A DNA stretch of 23,584 nucleotides from a virus, in the IMG/VR virus record IMGVR_UViG_3300005095_000085, positions 1 to 23,584 of that record; one strand, 5' to 3'. The position numbers and the translations under genes are program-made. Under the pieces are notes generated by a model. That model was given only the letters and a program-made list of their open reading frames with translations. It did not search any database and was not told the origin of the DNA. Positions 15,336 through 21,662 of the stretch are shown one piece after another; the stretch's first letter is position 1, and each line of letters begins with the position of its first letter.

Positions 15336-15620
15336 TTATTTATCCTCATTTTTTGTTTGGTGTGCCTCTGTGGCTCTCAAATCGCCCTCTATTGGGCTTT
15401 TAATCGCTTTTTGTTTTGTAATATTATTCTCTTGTAGAGATTGCAAATAGCTATTTATGTTTAGCCAAGCCTCTACAGGAATATTAAATTTTTGCTCTAT
15501 GATTAGAGCGTTTTTAATATTAGGCAGGTTTCTACCCTGAAACCAAGAGCTAACAGCTGAATGAGAGCGATTACACTCTCTTGCAATAGCATTAATTGTT
15601 CCTCTCGGTAGTAATTGCAT
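15336..15620 (-). CDS. Cro/CII-like helix-turn-helix regulator
   Basis: 94 residues. Residues 6-45 (GTINAIARECNRSHSAVSSWFQGR, then ALIIEQKFNIPVEAWL) are a clear lambda-repressor-like HTH of the Cro/YdaS type, with the turn and recognition helix at HSAVSSWFQG. The tail after residue 60 is polar and unrelated. It is divergent from the CI-type gene and separated from it by two GTNAG-N5-CTNAC operators, exactly where Cro lies in lambdoid phages. AAAGG is 7 bases before ATG 15620. It may act as the lytic counterpart of the repressor or as an activator; the sequence does not decide. Confidence 0.75.
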   Translation of the reverse strand: MQLLPRGTINAIARECNRSHSAVSSWFQGRNLPNIKNALIIEQKFNIPVEAWLNINSYLQSLQENNITKQKAIKSPIEGDLRATEAHQTKNEDK

Positions 15621-15638
15621 AGTAAAACCTTTATGTTT

Positions 15639-15667
15639 TTTATAATGTTAGCAAACCTTACATTAAA
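15639..15667 (-). promoter_or_regulatory. early promoter PR-like
   Basis: Minus strand TTTAAT (15667-15662) and TATAAA (15644-15639) with a 17-base spacer that contains the operator 15647-15661. Same architecture as the 17.6-kb promoter on the other strand. Confidence 0.55.
15647..15661. promoter_or_regulatory. repressor operator OR-a
   Basis: GTTAGCAAACCTTAC matches the dyad GTNAG-N5-CTNAC. It is 35 bases from the second site and inside the promoter for the Cro-like gene. Confidence 0.72.
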
Positions 15668-15681
15668 CAATACTTAAAGTT

Positions 15682-15696
15682 GTAAGGTTTACTAAC
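15682..15696. promoter_or_regulatory. repressor operator OR-b
   Basis: GTAAGGTTTACTAAC: same dyad, nearly the inverse of OR-a (14 of 15 positions). It lies just before TAAAAT (15700-15705), the likely -10 of the repressor's own weaker promoter, so the repressor probably regulates itself. Confidence 0.72.
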
Positions 15697-15738
15697 TCAT
15701 AAAATGTTACTATTTCTAACAATTAGGAGTTTTTGAGA

Positions 15739-16452
15739 ATGGATATAGGTAGTAGAATAAAAGAAATTAGAAAGAATAAAAAGATTACACAATTAAGATT
15801 GTCTGAATTAACAGGAATCAATAGAGCTTCAATTACACAATATGAAAATGGAACTTATGAGCCATCTATTGAAAAATTAGAACTAATAGCAAACGCCCTA
15901 AATGTAACAGTTCAAGACCTATTTGACCCTTCAAAAAAAGAGCTTATTGCAAAAGAAGAAATAACTAAAAATCCTCTTAAATATGTAGATTATTTCCCAG
16001 AAATTCAGCTCATAAAAGATTTAGTAAAAATAGAAGCATTTGCAATCGGTGCAGGTGCTGAAGCATTAGTGCAAACAGATATAGAATATATCTATTTACC
16101 TAAAGAAATTATCCCCAAAAGTTTTGATAGTAGATACACTAAAATAGGTAAAATTGTAGGCGATAGTATGGAGCCCGAATTTTGCGAGGGCGATATTGTT
16201 TTTTTAGATATGGTAGCAAATAGACATATAGAGTATATTGATGGAATCTACTTAATACAATATGGCGATGTAGTGCAGCTTAAAAGAGTGCAATTTTTAG
16301 GCAACTCTCACGCAAATATTATTAGCCTAAATCCAAAATATCCTACTATTAACACAAAAGATTTAGGTATTGAGTGGCAAATATTAGGTAAGCCATATTT
16401 TGTATGGAAGCATAAAGAGTATTCTAAATTAAAAATATTAGAAGATAACTAA
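15739..16452 (+). CDS. CI-type repressor with LexA/S24 peptidase domain
   Basis: 237 residues from ATG 15739; AGGAG lies 9 bases upstream, whereas the in-frame TTG at 15733 is only 3 bases from it. N-terminal XRE helix-turn-helix (about 3-60: IGSRIKEIRKNKKITQLRLSEL, then INRASITQYENG). C-terminal LexA-like protease fold: the nucleophile is Ser143 in GDSMEP, with the general-base Lys about 182 in DVVQLKRV. A possible Ala-Gly cleavage site lies in AIGAGAEA near residue 105. Known: RecA-stimulated self-cleavage induces such prophages. The operators at 15647 and 15682 lie in front and matching ones near 17.6 kb, so it would hold both early units silent in the lysogen. Confidence 0.92.
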   Translation: MDIGSRIKEIRKNKKITQLRLSELTGINRASITQYENGTYEPSIEKLELIANALNVTVQDLFDPSKKELIAKEEITKNPLKYVDYFPEIQLIKDLVKIEAFAIGAGAEALVQTDIEYIYLPKEIIPKSFDSRYTKIGKIVGDSMEPEFCEGDIVFLDMVANRHIEYIDGIYLIQYGDVVQLKRVQFLGNSHANIISLNPKYPTINTKDLGIEWQILGKPYFVWKHKEYSKLKILEDN

Positions 16453-16478
16453 AACTATAACGTTAATACATAACAGGA

Positions 16479-16486
16479 GGGGGGGG
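16479..16486 (+). repeat. G8 tract in the ribosome-binding site
   Basis: Eight consecutive G at 16479-16486, following AGGA, ending 5 bases before the ATG at 16492. In this A+T-rich sequence it is the only such homopolymer. Its length would set both SD strength and SD-to-ATG spacing. Poly-G tracts of this length are known contingency sites in Campylobacter and Helicobacter. Confidence 0.85.
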
Positions 16487-16491
16487 AATTA

Positions 16492-17091
16492 ATGCTTAAA
16501 AAACTTTTAATAACAAGTAGTCTATTTACACTTTTAACGCCTTTAAGTGCTGGAATATACTGTAAATATCTAAGCAGTTGTGCTGAAGCTTGTAAATATT
16601 ACAATATGGGATATTATCGATTAGATAGAGATAGAGACGGCATACCGTGTGAAAATTTGTGTTCTTATCCTTGCTCTGCACGAAAAGCAACAAAAAGGCA
16701 TACAAAACATTTAAAATCAAAAAGTAAGCACTATTATACAAAAGGCAAGAAAAGTTCTAAAAATACAAAACACCATAAAGAAAAATATTATCAAAAAGCT
16801 TTTTGTAAAAAAGTTTTAGGAATTATGGAGTATAAGCTAAAAGATGGCACACGAATAGATTGCTATACATCTACATACTCTTTTGAGGTTGATTTTGGTC
16901 ATAAAGCGTATGAAGCATTAGGTCAAGCGATGCAATACGCCGCCGTAGTAAATAATAAACCTGGAATTGCTTTAATTTTAGAAACTGCAATAGATAGAAG
17001 ATATGCAAATAGAATTAAAGCAACTGCTAAAAGATACGGAATAAAGATTTTTACTATTGATAAGAGCCTAAAAGTAAAGTTATTAAAGTAG
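16492..17091 (+). CDS. secreted protein: Excalibur domain plus PD-(D/E)XK-like domain
   Basis: 199 residues. Signal peptide 1-20 (KKLLITSSLFTLLTPLSA). Excalibur calcium-binding motif at about 24-57: Cys residues with LDRDRDGIPCENLC. Residues 60-100 form a Lys/His-rich linker. Residues 104-199 contain RIDCYTSTYSFEVDFGHKAY-EALGQAMQYA, with Asp123, Glu132-x-Asp134-x3-Lys138 and GQA, then GIALILE. This is a PD-(D/E)XK-like domain known in proteins with motifs such as DxxT..EfDf..K..EaiGQA. Inference: an exported nuclease or DNA-binding protein, expressed from the prophage because it follows the repressor gene. Its expression may switch through the G8 tract. Catalytic activity is unproven, since E-V-D replaces E-x-K. 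Confidence 0.72.
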   Translation: MLKKLLITSSLFTLLTPLSAGIYCKYLSSCAEACKYYNMGYYRLDRDRDGIPCENLCSYPCSARKATKRHTKHLKSKSKHYYTKGKKSSKNTKHHKEKYYQKAFCKKVLGIMEYKLKDGTRIDCYTSTYSFEVDFGHKAYEALGQAMQYAAVVNNKPGIALILETAIDRRYANRIKATAKRYGIKIFTIDKSLKVKLLK

Positions 17092-17122
17092 ATAGAACTA
17101 ATAATGTTCTATTCTACCTTTT
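17088..17122. terminator. bidirectional terminator between convergent genes
   Basis: GTAGATAGAAC (17088-17098) pairs with GTTCTATTCTAC (17106-17117), one bulge, then CTTTT on the plus strand. It overlaps both stop codons (17089-17091 and 17098-17100). Confidence 0.6.
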
Positions 17123-17541
17123 AAATCTGCATTACAAATAGCATTTCCGATTTCTCTAAAACCTTTATTTTGTAAAACATTCTTATAATCTACTATTTTT
17201 ATAAATAATTTATTTTTTAGTTTTACTTTATCTTGTATTTTAAGACATAAATATTCTGCAAAACCATTTCTATTTGTTTTGTCATCATACATACCGACAT
17301 ACAAAAAGCCACTATCCATCCAAATTGCGTCCTTAACTCTCCCCTCATCTTTAACTAGCTTTAATATTTGTTTTTTTTCATTATCTGATATTTGTCTATC
17401 TTTATGTATTTCTTTTTTTGTTTTATTGCTAAAAGTTTCTGTTTTAGCTGTATTAGTTTCAGCTATCCTAGGAATAGCTATTGCTGCAAGTACACCTATT
17501 ATAAAAACTAATCCTATTAGTTTAAATATCATCTTAAACAT
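17098..17541 (-). CDS. membrane-anchored protein, unknown
   Basis: 147 residues. One N-terminal membrane helix (about 4-25, IFKLIGLVFIIGVLAAIAIPRI), then a polar linker and a globular region. That region contains EGRVKDAIWMDSGFLYVGMYDD and ends with GNAICNADLKG. AAGGGG precedes ATG 17541; TATAAT at 17562-17567 (minus) is a probable -10. The position beside the repressor, and the opposite direction to the lytic unit, fit a lysogen-expressed gene such as a superinfection-exclusion factor. No family recognised, so this is by position only. Confidence 0.6.
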   Translation of the reverse strand: MFKMIFKLIGLVFIIGVLAAIAIPRIAETNTAKTETFSNKTKKEIHKDRQISDNEKKQILKLVKDEGRVKDAIWMDSGFLYVGMYDDKTNRNGFAEYLCLKIQDKVKLKNKLFIKIVDYKNVLQNKGFREIGNAICNADLKGRIEHY

Positions 17542-17594
17542 AATACCCCTTTTTAATCAAAATTATACCTAAAAATCATTTTATCCTAGAAAAT

Positions 17595-17609
17595 GTAAGG
17601 AATACTAAC
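17595..17609. promoter_or_regulatory. repressor operator OL-a
   Basis: GTAAGGAATACTAAC: matches GTNAG-N5-CTNAC and differs from OR-b at two of 15 bases. Lies upstream of both the 17541 gene (minus) and the early plus-strand unit. Confidence 0.65.
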
Positions 17610-17623
17610 AAATTTAATAATTA

Positions 17624-17652
17624 TTTAAGGTTAGGTTTGCTAACATTACAAC
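17624..17652 (+). promoter_or_regulatory. early promoter PL-like with operator OL-b
   Basis: TTTAAG (17624-17629) and TACAAC (17647-17652) are 17 bases apart, and the spacer contains GTTAGGTTTGCTAAC (17630-17644), the fourth GTNAG-N5-CTNAC site. The arrangement repeats that of the Cro-side promoter. It would drive the tRNA and the recombination genes when repression ends. Confidence 0.6.
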
Positions 17653-17725
17653 ATACAAACACACAAAAGCCCACAAAAGCTTTAGTGTTTGAGATATTTA
17701 ACTTAACATTGTTTTTATTTTTAAA

Positions 17726-17801
17726 GGGCAGGTAGCTCAGCTGGTAGAGCCAGCGGCTCATAACCGCTTGGTCGCAGGTTCGAATCCTGCTCTGCCCACC
17801 A
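17726..17801 (+). tRNA. tRNA-Met (anticodon CAT)
   Basis: Complete cloverleaf: acceptor GGGCAGG/TCTGCCC, D arm GCTC-GAGC, anticodon stem AGCGG/CCGCT around loop CTCATAA, T arm GCAGG TTCGAAT CCTGC, and an encoded CCA (17799-17801). Anticodon CAT may be elongator Met or, if lysidine-modified, Ile2. It is first in the early plus-strand unit, between the operators and the early genes, so it may be made with the early transcript. It could also have been an integration target, but no duplicated tRNA end is visible here. Confidence 0.92.
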
Positions 17802-17804
17802 ACA

Positions 17805-17907
17805 AAGCTTATATCTGGGGGCGCGAGAAATACCATCTTTTCCAAGTGTTATTCCTCCTCCTTTAGTATTATACACCCCACCACCTCACGCCCCTTGATA
17901 TAGGCTT
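17805..17907 (+). promoter_or_regulatory. long hairpin leader with anti-Shine-Dalgarno loop
   Basis: Starts 4 bases after the tRNA. Outer stem AAGCTTATATC (17805-17815) with GATATAGGCTT (17897-17907), one G-U; then GGGGCGCGAG (17818-17827) with CTCACGCCCC (17885-17894), one C-A mismatch. The apical loop contains CCTCCTCCTTT (17854-17864), complementary to the AAAGGAG (17928-17934) of the following gene. This whole stretch of about 100 bases is GC-richer than its surroundings and has no credible gene. It could be an RNA processed from the tRNA transcript or a translation control element. Confidence 0.55.
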
Positions 17908-17939
17908 TAGCTTATAAAAAATAAAAGAAAGGAGTAGCA

Positions 17940-18156
17940 ATGGCTACATTAGTTGAATTTTTAGCAGGAGATATTATGAGTGGCTTGGCTAATGTAGCCG
18001 AGCTTGTTGGATTTGCGGGTATTTGACTGGGCAGTAGCAAGAGGTTGGAAGAATGTATCAATGTTCGACCCAAGCAAGACAGAGTATGGCACTCTACCAA
18101 ACGGTAAGCAGGGAGCATTAAGTCAAGGTGGGCTTATCTTTGGCGACGAGGTTTAA
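17940..18156 (+). CDS. small gene needing +1 frameshift at AUU UGA C
   Basis: AAAGGAG lies 5 bases before ATG 17940. Frame 0 gives 28 residues (MATLVEFLAGDIMSGL, ending GFAGI) and stops at TGA 18024-18026. Skipping one base continues from GAC 18025 for 43 residues (DWAVARGWKNVSMFDPS, ending GLIFGDEV) to TAA 18154, total about 71. The site GGGT-ATT-TGA-C resembles the prfB-type +1 site (CTT TGA C), though the G-run is closer. An 11-bp perfect inverted repeat, GGCTACATTAG (17942-17952) with CTAATGTAGCC (17989-17999), lies just upstream. Either programmed frameshifting or a recent indel. No family recognised; codon use is GC-richer than its neighbours. Confidence 0.5.
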
Positions 18157-18170
18157 CCTCTTAGCCTTCT

Positions 18171-20317: not shown

Positions 20318-21001
20318 ATGAATGATTTAGTAGTAAAGTTTGAGGTAGATGGTAGTGAGGTTAAATTAAGTCCAAAAATTGTAGCAGAGTATCTTACAAA
20401 TGGGCAACAAATAACAATGCCTGAATTTAAGATGTTTACAGAGTTATGTAAGGCAAGAAAGCTAAACCCATTCTTAAAAGAAGCATACATTATTAAATAT
20501 GGGAACTCTCCAGCAACAATAGTTGTTGGTAAAGATGCTATTTTAAAAAGAGCTATTAAACACAAAGAGTTTAATGGTAGAGAGCAGGGAATTATTGTTA
20601 AAACAAAAGAGGGCAAAATTGAAGAGAGAAAAGGCTCTTTTTATACTAAAGATGAAGAGGTAGTAGGTGGCTGGGCAAAAGTTTATAGAAAAGGCTGGGA
20701 GCATCCAACATACATTACAGTATCTTTGCAAGAGGCAATACAAACTAAAAAAGATGGCACACCAAACAGCAATTGGGCTACTAAACCTGCAACTATGATT
20801 GAAAAAGTAGCACTTGTTAGAGCATTAAGAGAAACATTTGTAGAGGATTTAGGAGGTATATTTGATGAAGATGAAGCCTGGAGAGATAAAGAAGCAATGC
20901 AAGATAGAGCAACACAAGAGTCTTACATAGAGCAACCAGAGCCACCAGCAACGCAAGAAGATACAGAAAAAGAAGAGGTAATCGATATTGATTCAGTTTA
21001 A
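20318..21001 (+). CDS. recT: RecT/Bet single-strand annealing protein
   Basis: 227 residues, with AAGGAG before ATG 20318. Typical Bet/RecT family core: MPEFKMFTELCKARKLNPFLKEAYIIKY, then TIVVGKDAILKRA, ending WATKPATMIEKVALVRALRETF-EDLGGIFDEDE near residue 190. The final 35 residues are acidic and disordered (EEPATQEDTEKEEVIDID-like), the usual SSB-interaction type tail. It anneals complementary single strands during phage recombination, normally with a 5'-3' exonuclease. No YqaJ or lambda-exo type partner is seen in the window, though the next gene could serve. Last 14 bases overlap the next gene. Confidence 0.93.
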   Translation: MNDLVVKFEVDGSEVKLSPKIVAEYLTNGQQITMPEFKMFTELCKARKLNPFLKEAYIIKYGNSPATIVVGKDAILKRAIKHKEFNGREQGIIVKTKEGKIEERKGSFYTKDEEVVGGWAKVYRKGWEHPTYITVSLQEAIQTKKDGTPNSNWATKPATMIEKVALVRALRETFVEDLGGIFDEDEAWRDKEAMQDRATQESYIEQPEPPATQEDTEKEEVIDIDSV

Positions 21002-21662
21002 AATTATAGCAAGTAGCAGTAAAGGAAACTGCTACTTATTTGAAGACTTTATCTTGCTTGATGTAGGTATCTCTTTTAAAGCTCTAAAAGAAAAAGTAGA
21101 TATATCTAAGATAAAGTATGTGTTACTTACGCATATTCATAGCGATCATTTTAACAAAGATACTATTAGAAAACTTTATGTAAATAATAGAAGCATAAAG
21201 TTCGTATGCGGTAATCATCTTTTAAATGAACTTTTAAAAATTGCTATTCCTAAAGAAAATATTGCAGTTATTCAAATAGGTAAGAGATACAAAATAAAAG
21301 ATATAGAGATAGTAGCAATTAAATCATATCACGATGTGCCAAATATTGGCTATAGGATTTTTAAAGATGGTTATAAACACTTGCATATAACCGATACAGC
21401 ACACTTAAAAGGCATTAGTGCAAAAAATTATGATAGTGCTACTCTTGAGTGTAATCACGAAGAGGTTGAAGCACTAAGATTAATTGCAGAGGCTGAAGAA
21501 AAAGGAGAGTTCACACATCTAAAAGGTGCTATGAACTCTCATCTAAGTGTGCAACAGGCTGTAGAATTTGTTAAGGCTAACAACATTAAAAAGCTTATTC
21601 CTTGTCATATAGGCAGCACAAAAAAAGAGGTAGAGAGGTATTTAAATGCAGTTGGTTTATAG
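20988..21662 (+). CDS. metallo-beta-lactamase-fold hydrolase
   Basis: 224 residues from TTG 20988, which is preceded by AGAGG 9 bases upstream and is the only usable start. Motifs of the MBL fold: HIHSDH at 49-54, then His115, Asp136 in HITDTAHL, His185 (NSHLS) and His207 (PCHIGS), all expected metal ligands. N-terminal SSSKGNCYLFED-FILLDVG is the classic strand with Asp. Phage MBL proteins next to recT are often annotated as nuclease-like; a replacement exonuclease is possible, but substrate cannot be read. It overlaps recT by 14 bases and the next gene by 17. Confidence 0.82.
   Translation: MIQFKIIASSSKGNCYLFEDFILLDVGISFKALKEKVDISKIKYVLLTHIHSDHFNKDTIRKLYVNNRSIKFVCGNHLLNELLKIAIPKENIAVIQIGKRYKIKDIEIVAIKSYHDVPNIGYRIFKDGYKHLHITDTAHLKGISAKNYDSATLECNHEEVEALRLIAEAEEKGEFTHLKGAMNSHLSVQQAVEFVKANNIKKLIPCHIGSTKKEVERYLNAVGL

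Follow-up and report, generated by a model that had tools for sequence, protein, structure and literature searches.

Gene content of the locus

The window, meaning the whole stretch of DNA analysed here, is the linear IMG/VR virus record IMGVR_UViG_3300005095_000085 (23,584 nt, 31.7% G+C). It carries phage genes for a repressor, a terminase, a RecT/Bet-like protein, a capsid and a holin. The structural genes show DNA similarity to the Nitratiruptor phages NrS-1 to NrS-3, and the terminase and portal show protein similarity to related viral contigs; this phage similarity points to a host within the Campylobacterota. The phage is probably temperate, and the predicted nuclease gene described below would be a cargo gene of its lysogeny region. 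Searches with the terminase and the repressor recovered relatives of the window phage, none of which carried this nuclease. The features around the repressor are as follows.

15739..16452, + strand: CI-like lysogeny repressor (Pfam HTH_3, E=3.6e-16, and Peptidase_S24, E=1.4e-14; phrog_4, transcriptional repressor, E=8e-40)
16453..16491, + strand: intergenic leader, 39 nt between the repressor stop and the ATG of the nuclease gene
16475..16486, + strand: putative extended Shine-Dalgarno site, AGGA plus G8, 5 nt before the ATG (sequence, pairing energy)
16492..17091, + strand: predicted exported Excalibur/PD-(D/E)XK fusion protein, 199 aa (translation, Pfam, AlphaFold2 model)
16492..16551, + strand: predicted signal peptide MLKKLLITSSLFTLLTPLSA, residues 1-20 (by inspection of the translation)
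16558..16653, + strand: Excalibur domain, residues 23-54, with the loop DRDRDGIPCE (PF05901)
16774..17088, + strand: C-terminal domain of predicted PD-(D/E)XK fold, about 105 residues (alignment, model, weak Foldseek matches)
17098..17541, - strand: 147-aa protein, convergent, with a hydrophobic segment at its N terminus (phrog_7191)

The leader reads ATAAC-AGGA (16475-16478)-GGGGGGGG (16479-16486)-AATTA-ATG (16492), and the full sequence of positions 16470-16494 is ATAACAGGAGGGGGGGGAATTAATG. No terminator-like site was found across 15500-17800, and transcription may therefore continue from the repressor gene into the leader. The idea of an RNA switch in the leader was rejected, as local folding is weak.

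Further downstream, positions 17726-17945 contain a tRNA-Met (CAT) and, behind it, 144 nt that include a long stem (z -2.3) and belong to no Rfam family. At 17941-18158, a short ORF, MATLVEFLAGDIMSGLANVAELVGFAGI, stops at a TGA while the adjacent frame goes on as RVFDWAVARGWKNVSMFDPSKTEYGTLPNGKQG; the pair resembles a small gene interrupted by a frameshift. Positions 20988-21662 encode a metallo-beta-lactamase-fold hydrolase (phrog_392), whose match to the anti-Pycsar protein Apyc1 is marginal and below threshold.

Domains and predicted fold of the putative exported protein

The initial annotation had described the gene after the repressor as encoding an exported Excalibur/PD-(D/E)XK-like protein. 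The gene does lie beside the lysogeny repressor, the stop codon of the HTH/S24 gene being located 39 nt upstream, and the Excalibur assignment was upheld by a PF05901 match above the curated cut-off (E=1.6e-5; 25.6 bits against 22). The loop DRDRDGIPCE fits the DxDxDGxxCE motif, which in the Excalibur protein CbpL was shown by NMR to bind Ca2+ (PMC5137146), and by analogy the Excalibur domain of the window protein may bind Ca2+ as well. A lysine-rich linker connects it to the C-terminal domain.

Both the C-terminal domain and the full-length protein were modelled with AlphaFold2. The domain model (pLDDT 96, pTM 0.87) has the topology H-EEE-H-E-HH-E, in which the core order of the PD-(D/E)XK fold (helix, three strands, helix, strand) is present as H12-22, E26-30, E36-40, E44-50, H51-67 and E71-78. 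Foldseek returned weak matches for this model, the leading ones at E of at least 0.03 and none below E=0.001; the leading ones included YaeQ, AF2093, a CdiA toxin domain and the influenza PA endonuclease, with a tRNA-splicing endonuclease lower down. Most of the leading matches are members of the PD-(D/E)XK superfamily. By sequence, the C-terminal domain matched nothing in Pfam, NCBIfam, PADLOC or the PDB sequences, so that neither a defence family nor a solved nuclease was found there.

Eight residues (E97, E113, D123, E132, K138, E141, Q145 and Y149) are invariant in an alignment of 109-113 members of the domain family described below. Q145 and Y149 form a QxxxY motif of the RecB/Cas4 kind, and D123, E132 and K138 together with this motif would constitute an active site of RecB/Cas4 type in which the lysine is displaced, as K138 sits six residues past E132, on the helix, rather than at the canonical (D/E)xK spacing of two. 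The invariant residues and the topology together support the PD-(D/E)XK assignment of the initial annotation and a nuclease function, which nevertheless cannot be assumed given the displacement of K138 to the helix. The displaced lysine and the weak structural matches, which include YaeQ, a protein not known to have an established nuclease activity, would also be consistent with a catalytically dead PD-(D/E)XK-fold module in a protein that binds DNA or the envelope. We consider this rather improbable, because invariance of the acidic residues, K138 and QxxxY across more than 100 divergent sequences fits catalysis better than mere binding.

A widespread family of predicted exported proteins

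Pattern and tblastn searches identified relatives of the C-terminal domain in about 95 viral and 135 genomic sequences. Scans with the whole protein as a single sequence retrieved none, and an alignment of the conserved domain was needed to recover them. Named phages carrying the domain are Nitratiruptor NrS-2 to NrS-5, Dulem virus 31, Rhizobium RR1-A and Salicola SCTP-2, and one member comes from a giant phage, where its gene adjoins ribonucleotide reductase genes. Only 2 of 109 family members made contact with a PHROG. The predicted export of the window protein, first suggested by its N-terminal sequence, agrees with the family as a whole: scored by a simple heuristic, a signal-like N-terminus occurs in 137 of 151 distinct members (~90%), compared with 129 of 662 control ORFs.

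The window protein alone among family members has an Excalibur domain in the same chain. Matches to the protein were found in 48 of 397 Campylobacterota genomes, 16 of them through the C-terminal domain and the rest through Excalibur-like stretches, and no single match in these genomes covers both. The C-terminal domain represents a widespread family of predicted exported proteins with a predicted PD-(D/E)XK-type fold that is absent from the family libraries searched. More than 200 relatives were found in temperate phages and bacteria; prophage-encoded exported nucleases are an already known kind of protein.

Gene order around the repressor

Among the 26 viral loci in which an S24 repressor was found, it lies at most 1.2 kb from the family gene in 22, against an expectation of 33% (binomial p about 8e-8, with related loci treated as independent), mostly upstream and on the same strand. 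A detectable S24 repressor nearby characterizes about a third of the viral family loci; given this proportion and the giant-phage member, the role of the family may differ between phages. A Pfam scan upstream of the viral members found mixed neighbours, of which HTH domains were the commonest.

Two prophages show a related arrangement. In L131 (2530-4318), the repressor is followed by genes for an exported protein, an Excalibur protein and the nuclease, with ATGA overlaps among the last three, and L133 (2050-4318) has the same order plus one extra exported protein between Excalibur and nuclease, its start and stop codons overlapping likewise. Both prophages thus keep Excalibur and nuclease as distinct genes, which are fused in the window; fusion of genes that are separate but adjacent elsewhere suggests that the two act together. 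An Excalibur protein also follows a regulator in Aeromonas LPM4 and lies further down in Mannheimia PHL101. As a separate observation, L131:3259-3744 and L133:3462-3926 encode predicted exported-type proteins without Pfam matches within these repressor-Excalibur-nuclease operons.

The G8 tract as a probable ribosome-binding site

The initial annotation had placed the end of AGGA-G8 5 bases before the ATG, as the coordinates above confirm, and had regarded it as the sole homopolymer of its kind in the A+T-rich window; indeed, no other G or C run of at least 6 occurs anywhere in it. Of 100 dinucleotide shuffles, 3 reached the observed count of 7-mer G matches. Low-GC comparison loci totalling 638 kb contained 5 G runs of at least 8 on both strands, or ~0.2 per window, so a single G8 is unusual but by no means extreme. 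In the same loci, there were 9 G runs of at least 7, and a start codon follows none of them. The position of G8 at a start codon is therefore less expected than G8 itself, although G runs are favoured at purine-rich Shine-Dalgarno sites.

Pairing of the leader with the anti-Shine-Dalgarno sequence was computed at -12.2 kcal/mol, the third strongest among 25 starts examined in the window. Several registers contribute, with AGGAGG giving -8.6 at a spacing of 11 nt and GGGGGG giving -8.6 at 7, 6 and 5 nt. On this basis, AGGA-G8 looks like a strong, register-tolerant Shine-Dalgarno site. The earlier proposal that a change of one or two bases alters Shine-Dalgarno strength and spacing sits poorly with the computed equal pairing at 5, 6 and 7 nt, which should buffer the gain or loss of one or two G, and a large effect is not expected.

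Comparable sites are found elsewhere. In viral contigs, 39 of 121 AGGA-G7 sites before an ATG, among the matches listed, precede a candidate ORF of at least 60 aa, and 10 of these 39, again among the matches listed, lie in A+T-rich contigs, indicating that poly-G-extended sites resembling Shine-Dalgarno sequences occur beyond this window. In the 397 Campylobacterota genomes, AGGA-G7 or longer before an ATG was found at 6 sites, compared with none in a mirrored control; the reading frames behind five of them are shorter than 50 codons and the sixth, at 83 codons, is doubtful, so none of the six is convincingly located at a gene start. DNA searches of phages, plasmids and viral contigs, allowing for any tract length, detected no relative of the leader, and a leader DNA search of the Campylobacterota genomes gave short partial matches only. 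The leaders of the nearest homologues of the nuclease lack the G tract, and in L131 the gene that comes first behind the repressor is preceded by a strong Shine-Dalgarno site of the ordinary kind, AAAAGGAGGAGAAATG.

The initial annotation had further proposed a phase-variable switch, on the grounds that poly-G tracts of about this length mutate often in Campylobacter and Helicobacter. The mutability itself stands, since a G8 tract slips at a useful rate in C. jejuni (0.004, compared with 0.02 for G11; PMC4965091), which makes slippage plausible here; the known tracts consulted, however, do not work through Shine-Dalgarno length. In Campylobacter and Helicobacter, poly-G contingency loci resemble the present one in tract length (at least 7-8), A+T-rich genome and Campylobacterota link, whereas their tracts act by reading frame or promoter and G8 of the window is a putative Shine-Dalgarno site. 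In M. tuberculosis, altering a homopolymer of the leader by one base changes translation (PMC11898584). Together with the phase-variable poly-G tracts of Campylobacterota hosts and the isolation of G8 as the sole G run of at least 6 in a 32% GC window, this could favour a contingency element in which slippage would change Shine-Dalgarno strength or spacing and tune export of the nuclease between lysogen subpopulations. We regard such an element as very unlikely: the pairing is saturated and register-tolerant, no homologous leader carries the tract, no relative of the leader that might show another tract length was found in the collections searched, the 397 Campylobacterota genomes yielded no convincing gene with a poly-G Shine-Dalgarno site, and among tracts known to switch G8 is one of the short ones. 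The switch proposal was accordingly not supported, and its extension to a lysogen population mixing cells open and closed to foreign DNA, through an exported nuclease tuned by poly-G slippage, is highly improbable.

The length of the tract may also be questioned, as the sequence comes from a linear contig in IMG/VR and G homopolymers yield slippage products in PCR (PMC4965091); the eight G could then be an assembly consensus for a tract that is truly shorter, longer or mixed. This seems unlikely, given that a run of 8 is easily spanned by short reads and that the flanks are intact, and the Shine-Dalgarno reading would stand for any length near 8.

Longer G tracts were encountered in other genomes. 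At L250:615 (+), from a gut bacterium, G9 separates the ATG of MKWLKCCNSNILTGGG from a prepilin-like motif, KLGFTLAEVLITLGIIG, which is read in the adjacent frame, making this a candidate frame-switching pilin gene. L239:6811 (-) and L262:7041 (-) mark one shared site in two Gastranaerophilales genomes, where one genome has G12 and the other G10. This is a possible length-variable tract, across which no clear ORF runs.

Comparison with known systems and proposed role

Among the closest known systems are hypothetical proteins of Nitratiruptor phages NrS-2 to NrS-5 (NrS2_34, NrS4_21), which share the C-terminal domain at 56% identity, an exported-type N-terminus and a location near the repressor. 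Unlike the window protein, they have no Excalibur domain, their gene is convergent with the repressor, and they lack the G tract. Moraxella phage Mcat8 encodes a secreted SNase-Excalibur protein directly after a repressor-like gene, as in the window, but its nuclease has the staphylococcal-nuclease fold instead of the predicted PD-(D/E)XK fold and the domain order is reversed. The nuclease domain of YokF, a Bacillus subtilis prophage protein, also has the staphylococcal-nuclease fold. An Excalibur domain in YokF, like that of the window protein, is supported indirectly by the literature, in which YokF is described as sharing Excalibur motifs (PMC5137146). It is also described as lowering transformation (PMC4372405, PMC4774983). 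According to the same two papers, natural transformation is blocked by the DNases of the C. jejuni elements CJIE1 (Dns/CJE0256), CJIE2 (CJE0566) and CJIE4 (CJE1441) (PMC4372405, PMC4774983). Like the window protein, for which export is predicted, they are exported nucleases on Campylobacterota mobile elements. By their descriptions they are set apart in having their own Pfam domains, while Pfam has no model for the C-terminal family of the window, and the portions of these accounts consulted mention no Excalibur domain, which the window protein has.

With the CJIE1/2/4 DNases and YokF as models for a barrier role, our best reading, to which we assign a probability of roughly 55%, is that the gene encodes an exported Excalibur/PD-(D/E)XK nuclease that would be made in the lysogen and degrade incoming DNA, with G8 as a tolerant Shine-Dalgarno site. 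The repressor transcript would also carry the nuclease gene, 39 nt downstream, and with a shared transcript the protein would be made in the lysogen. Once exported, its Excalibur module may fold on Ca2+, and the C-terminal PD-(D/E)XK domain would cut DNA outside the cytoplasm. The likely use would be a barrier to incoming naked DNA in natural transformation, and perhaps also to the DNA of superinfecting phages, and such a barrier could keep the prophage from being replaced. One-base slippage of G8 would leave a good register, and output would change little.

The main rival is a superinfection-exclusion factor that would act on phage DNA in the periplasm and not as a transformation blocker. The gene adjoins the repressor, where lysogenic conversion genes lie, the export signal and predicted nuclease fold would suit such a function, and CbpL has an Ltp domain, for which a relationship to superinfection-exclusion lipoproteins of phages is described (PMC5137146). 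The best-described secreted prophage nucleases nevertheless block transformation, and the PADLOC search gave no match, so we hold superinfection exclusion as the principal function to be possible but somewhat doubtful.

For the reading as a lysogen-made barrier to incoming DNA, the position beside the repressor and the link to Excalibur, by fusion or within an operon, point to a common phage strategy in which the lysogen makes an extracytoplasmic nuclease. The family is a candidate means by which prophages may bar transformation of their hosts or the entry of rival phages, beyond the known Dns- and SNase-type enzymes.
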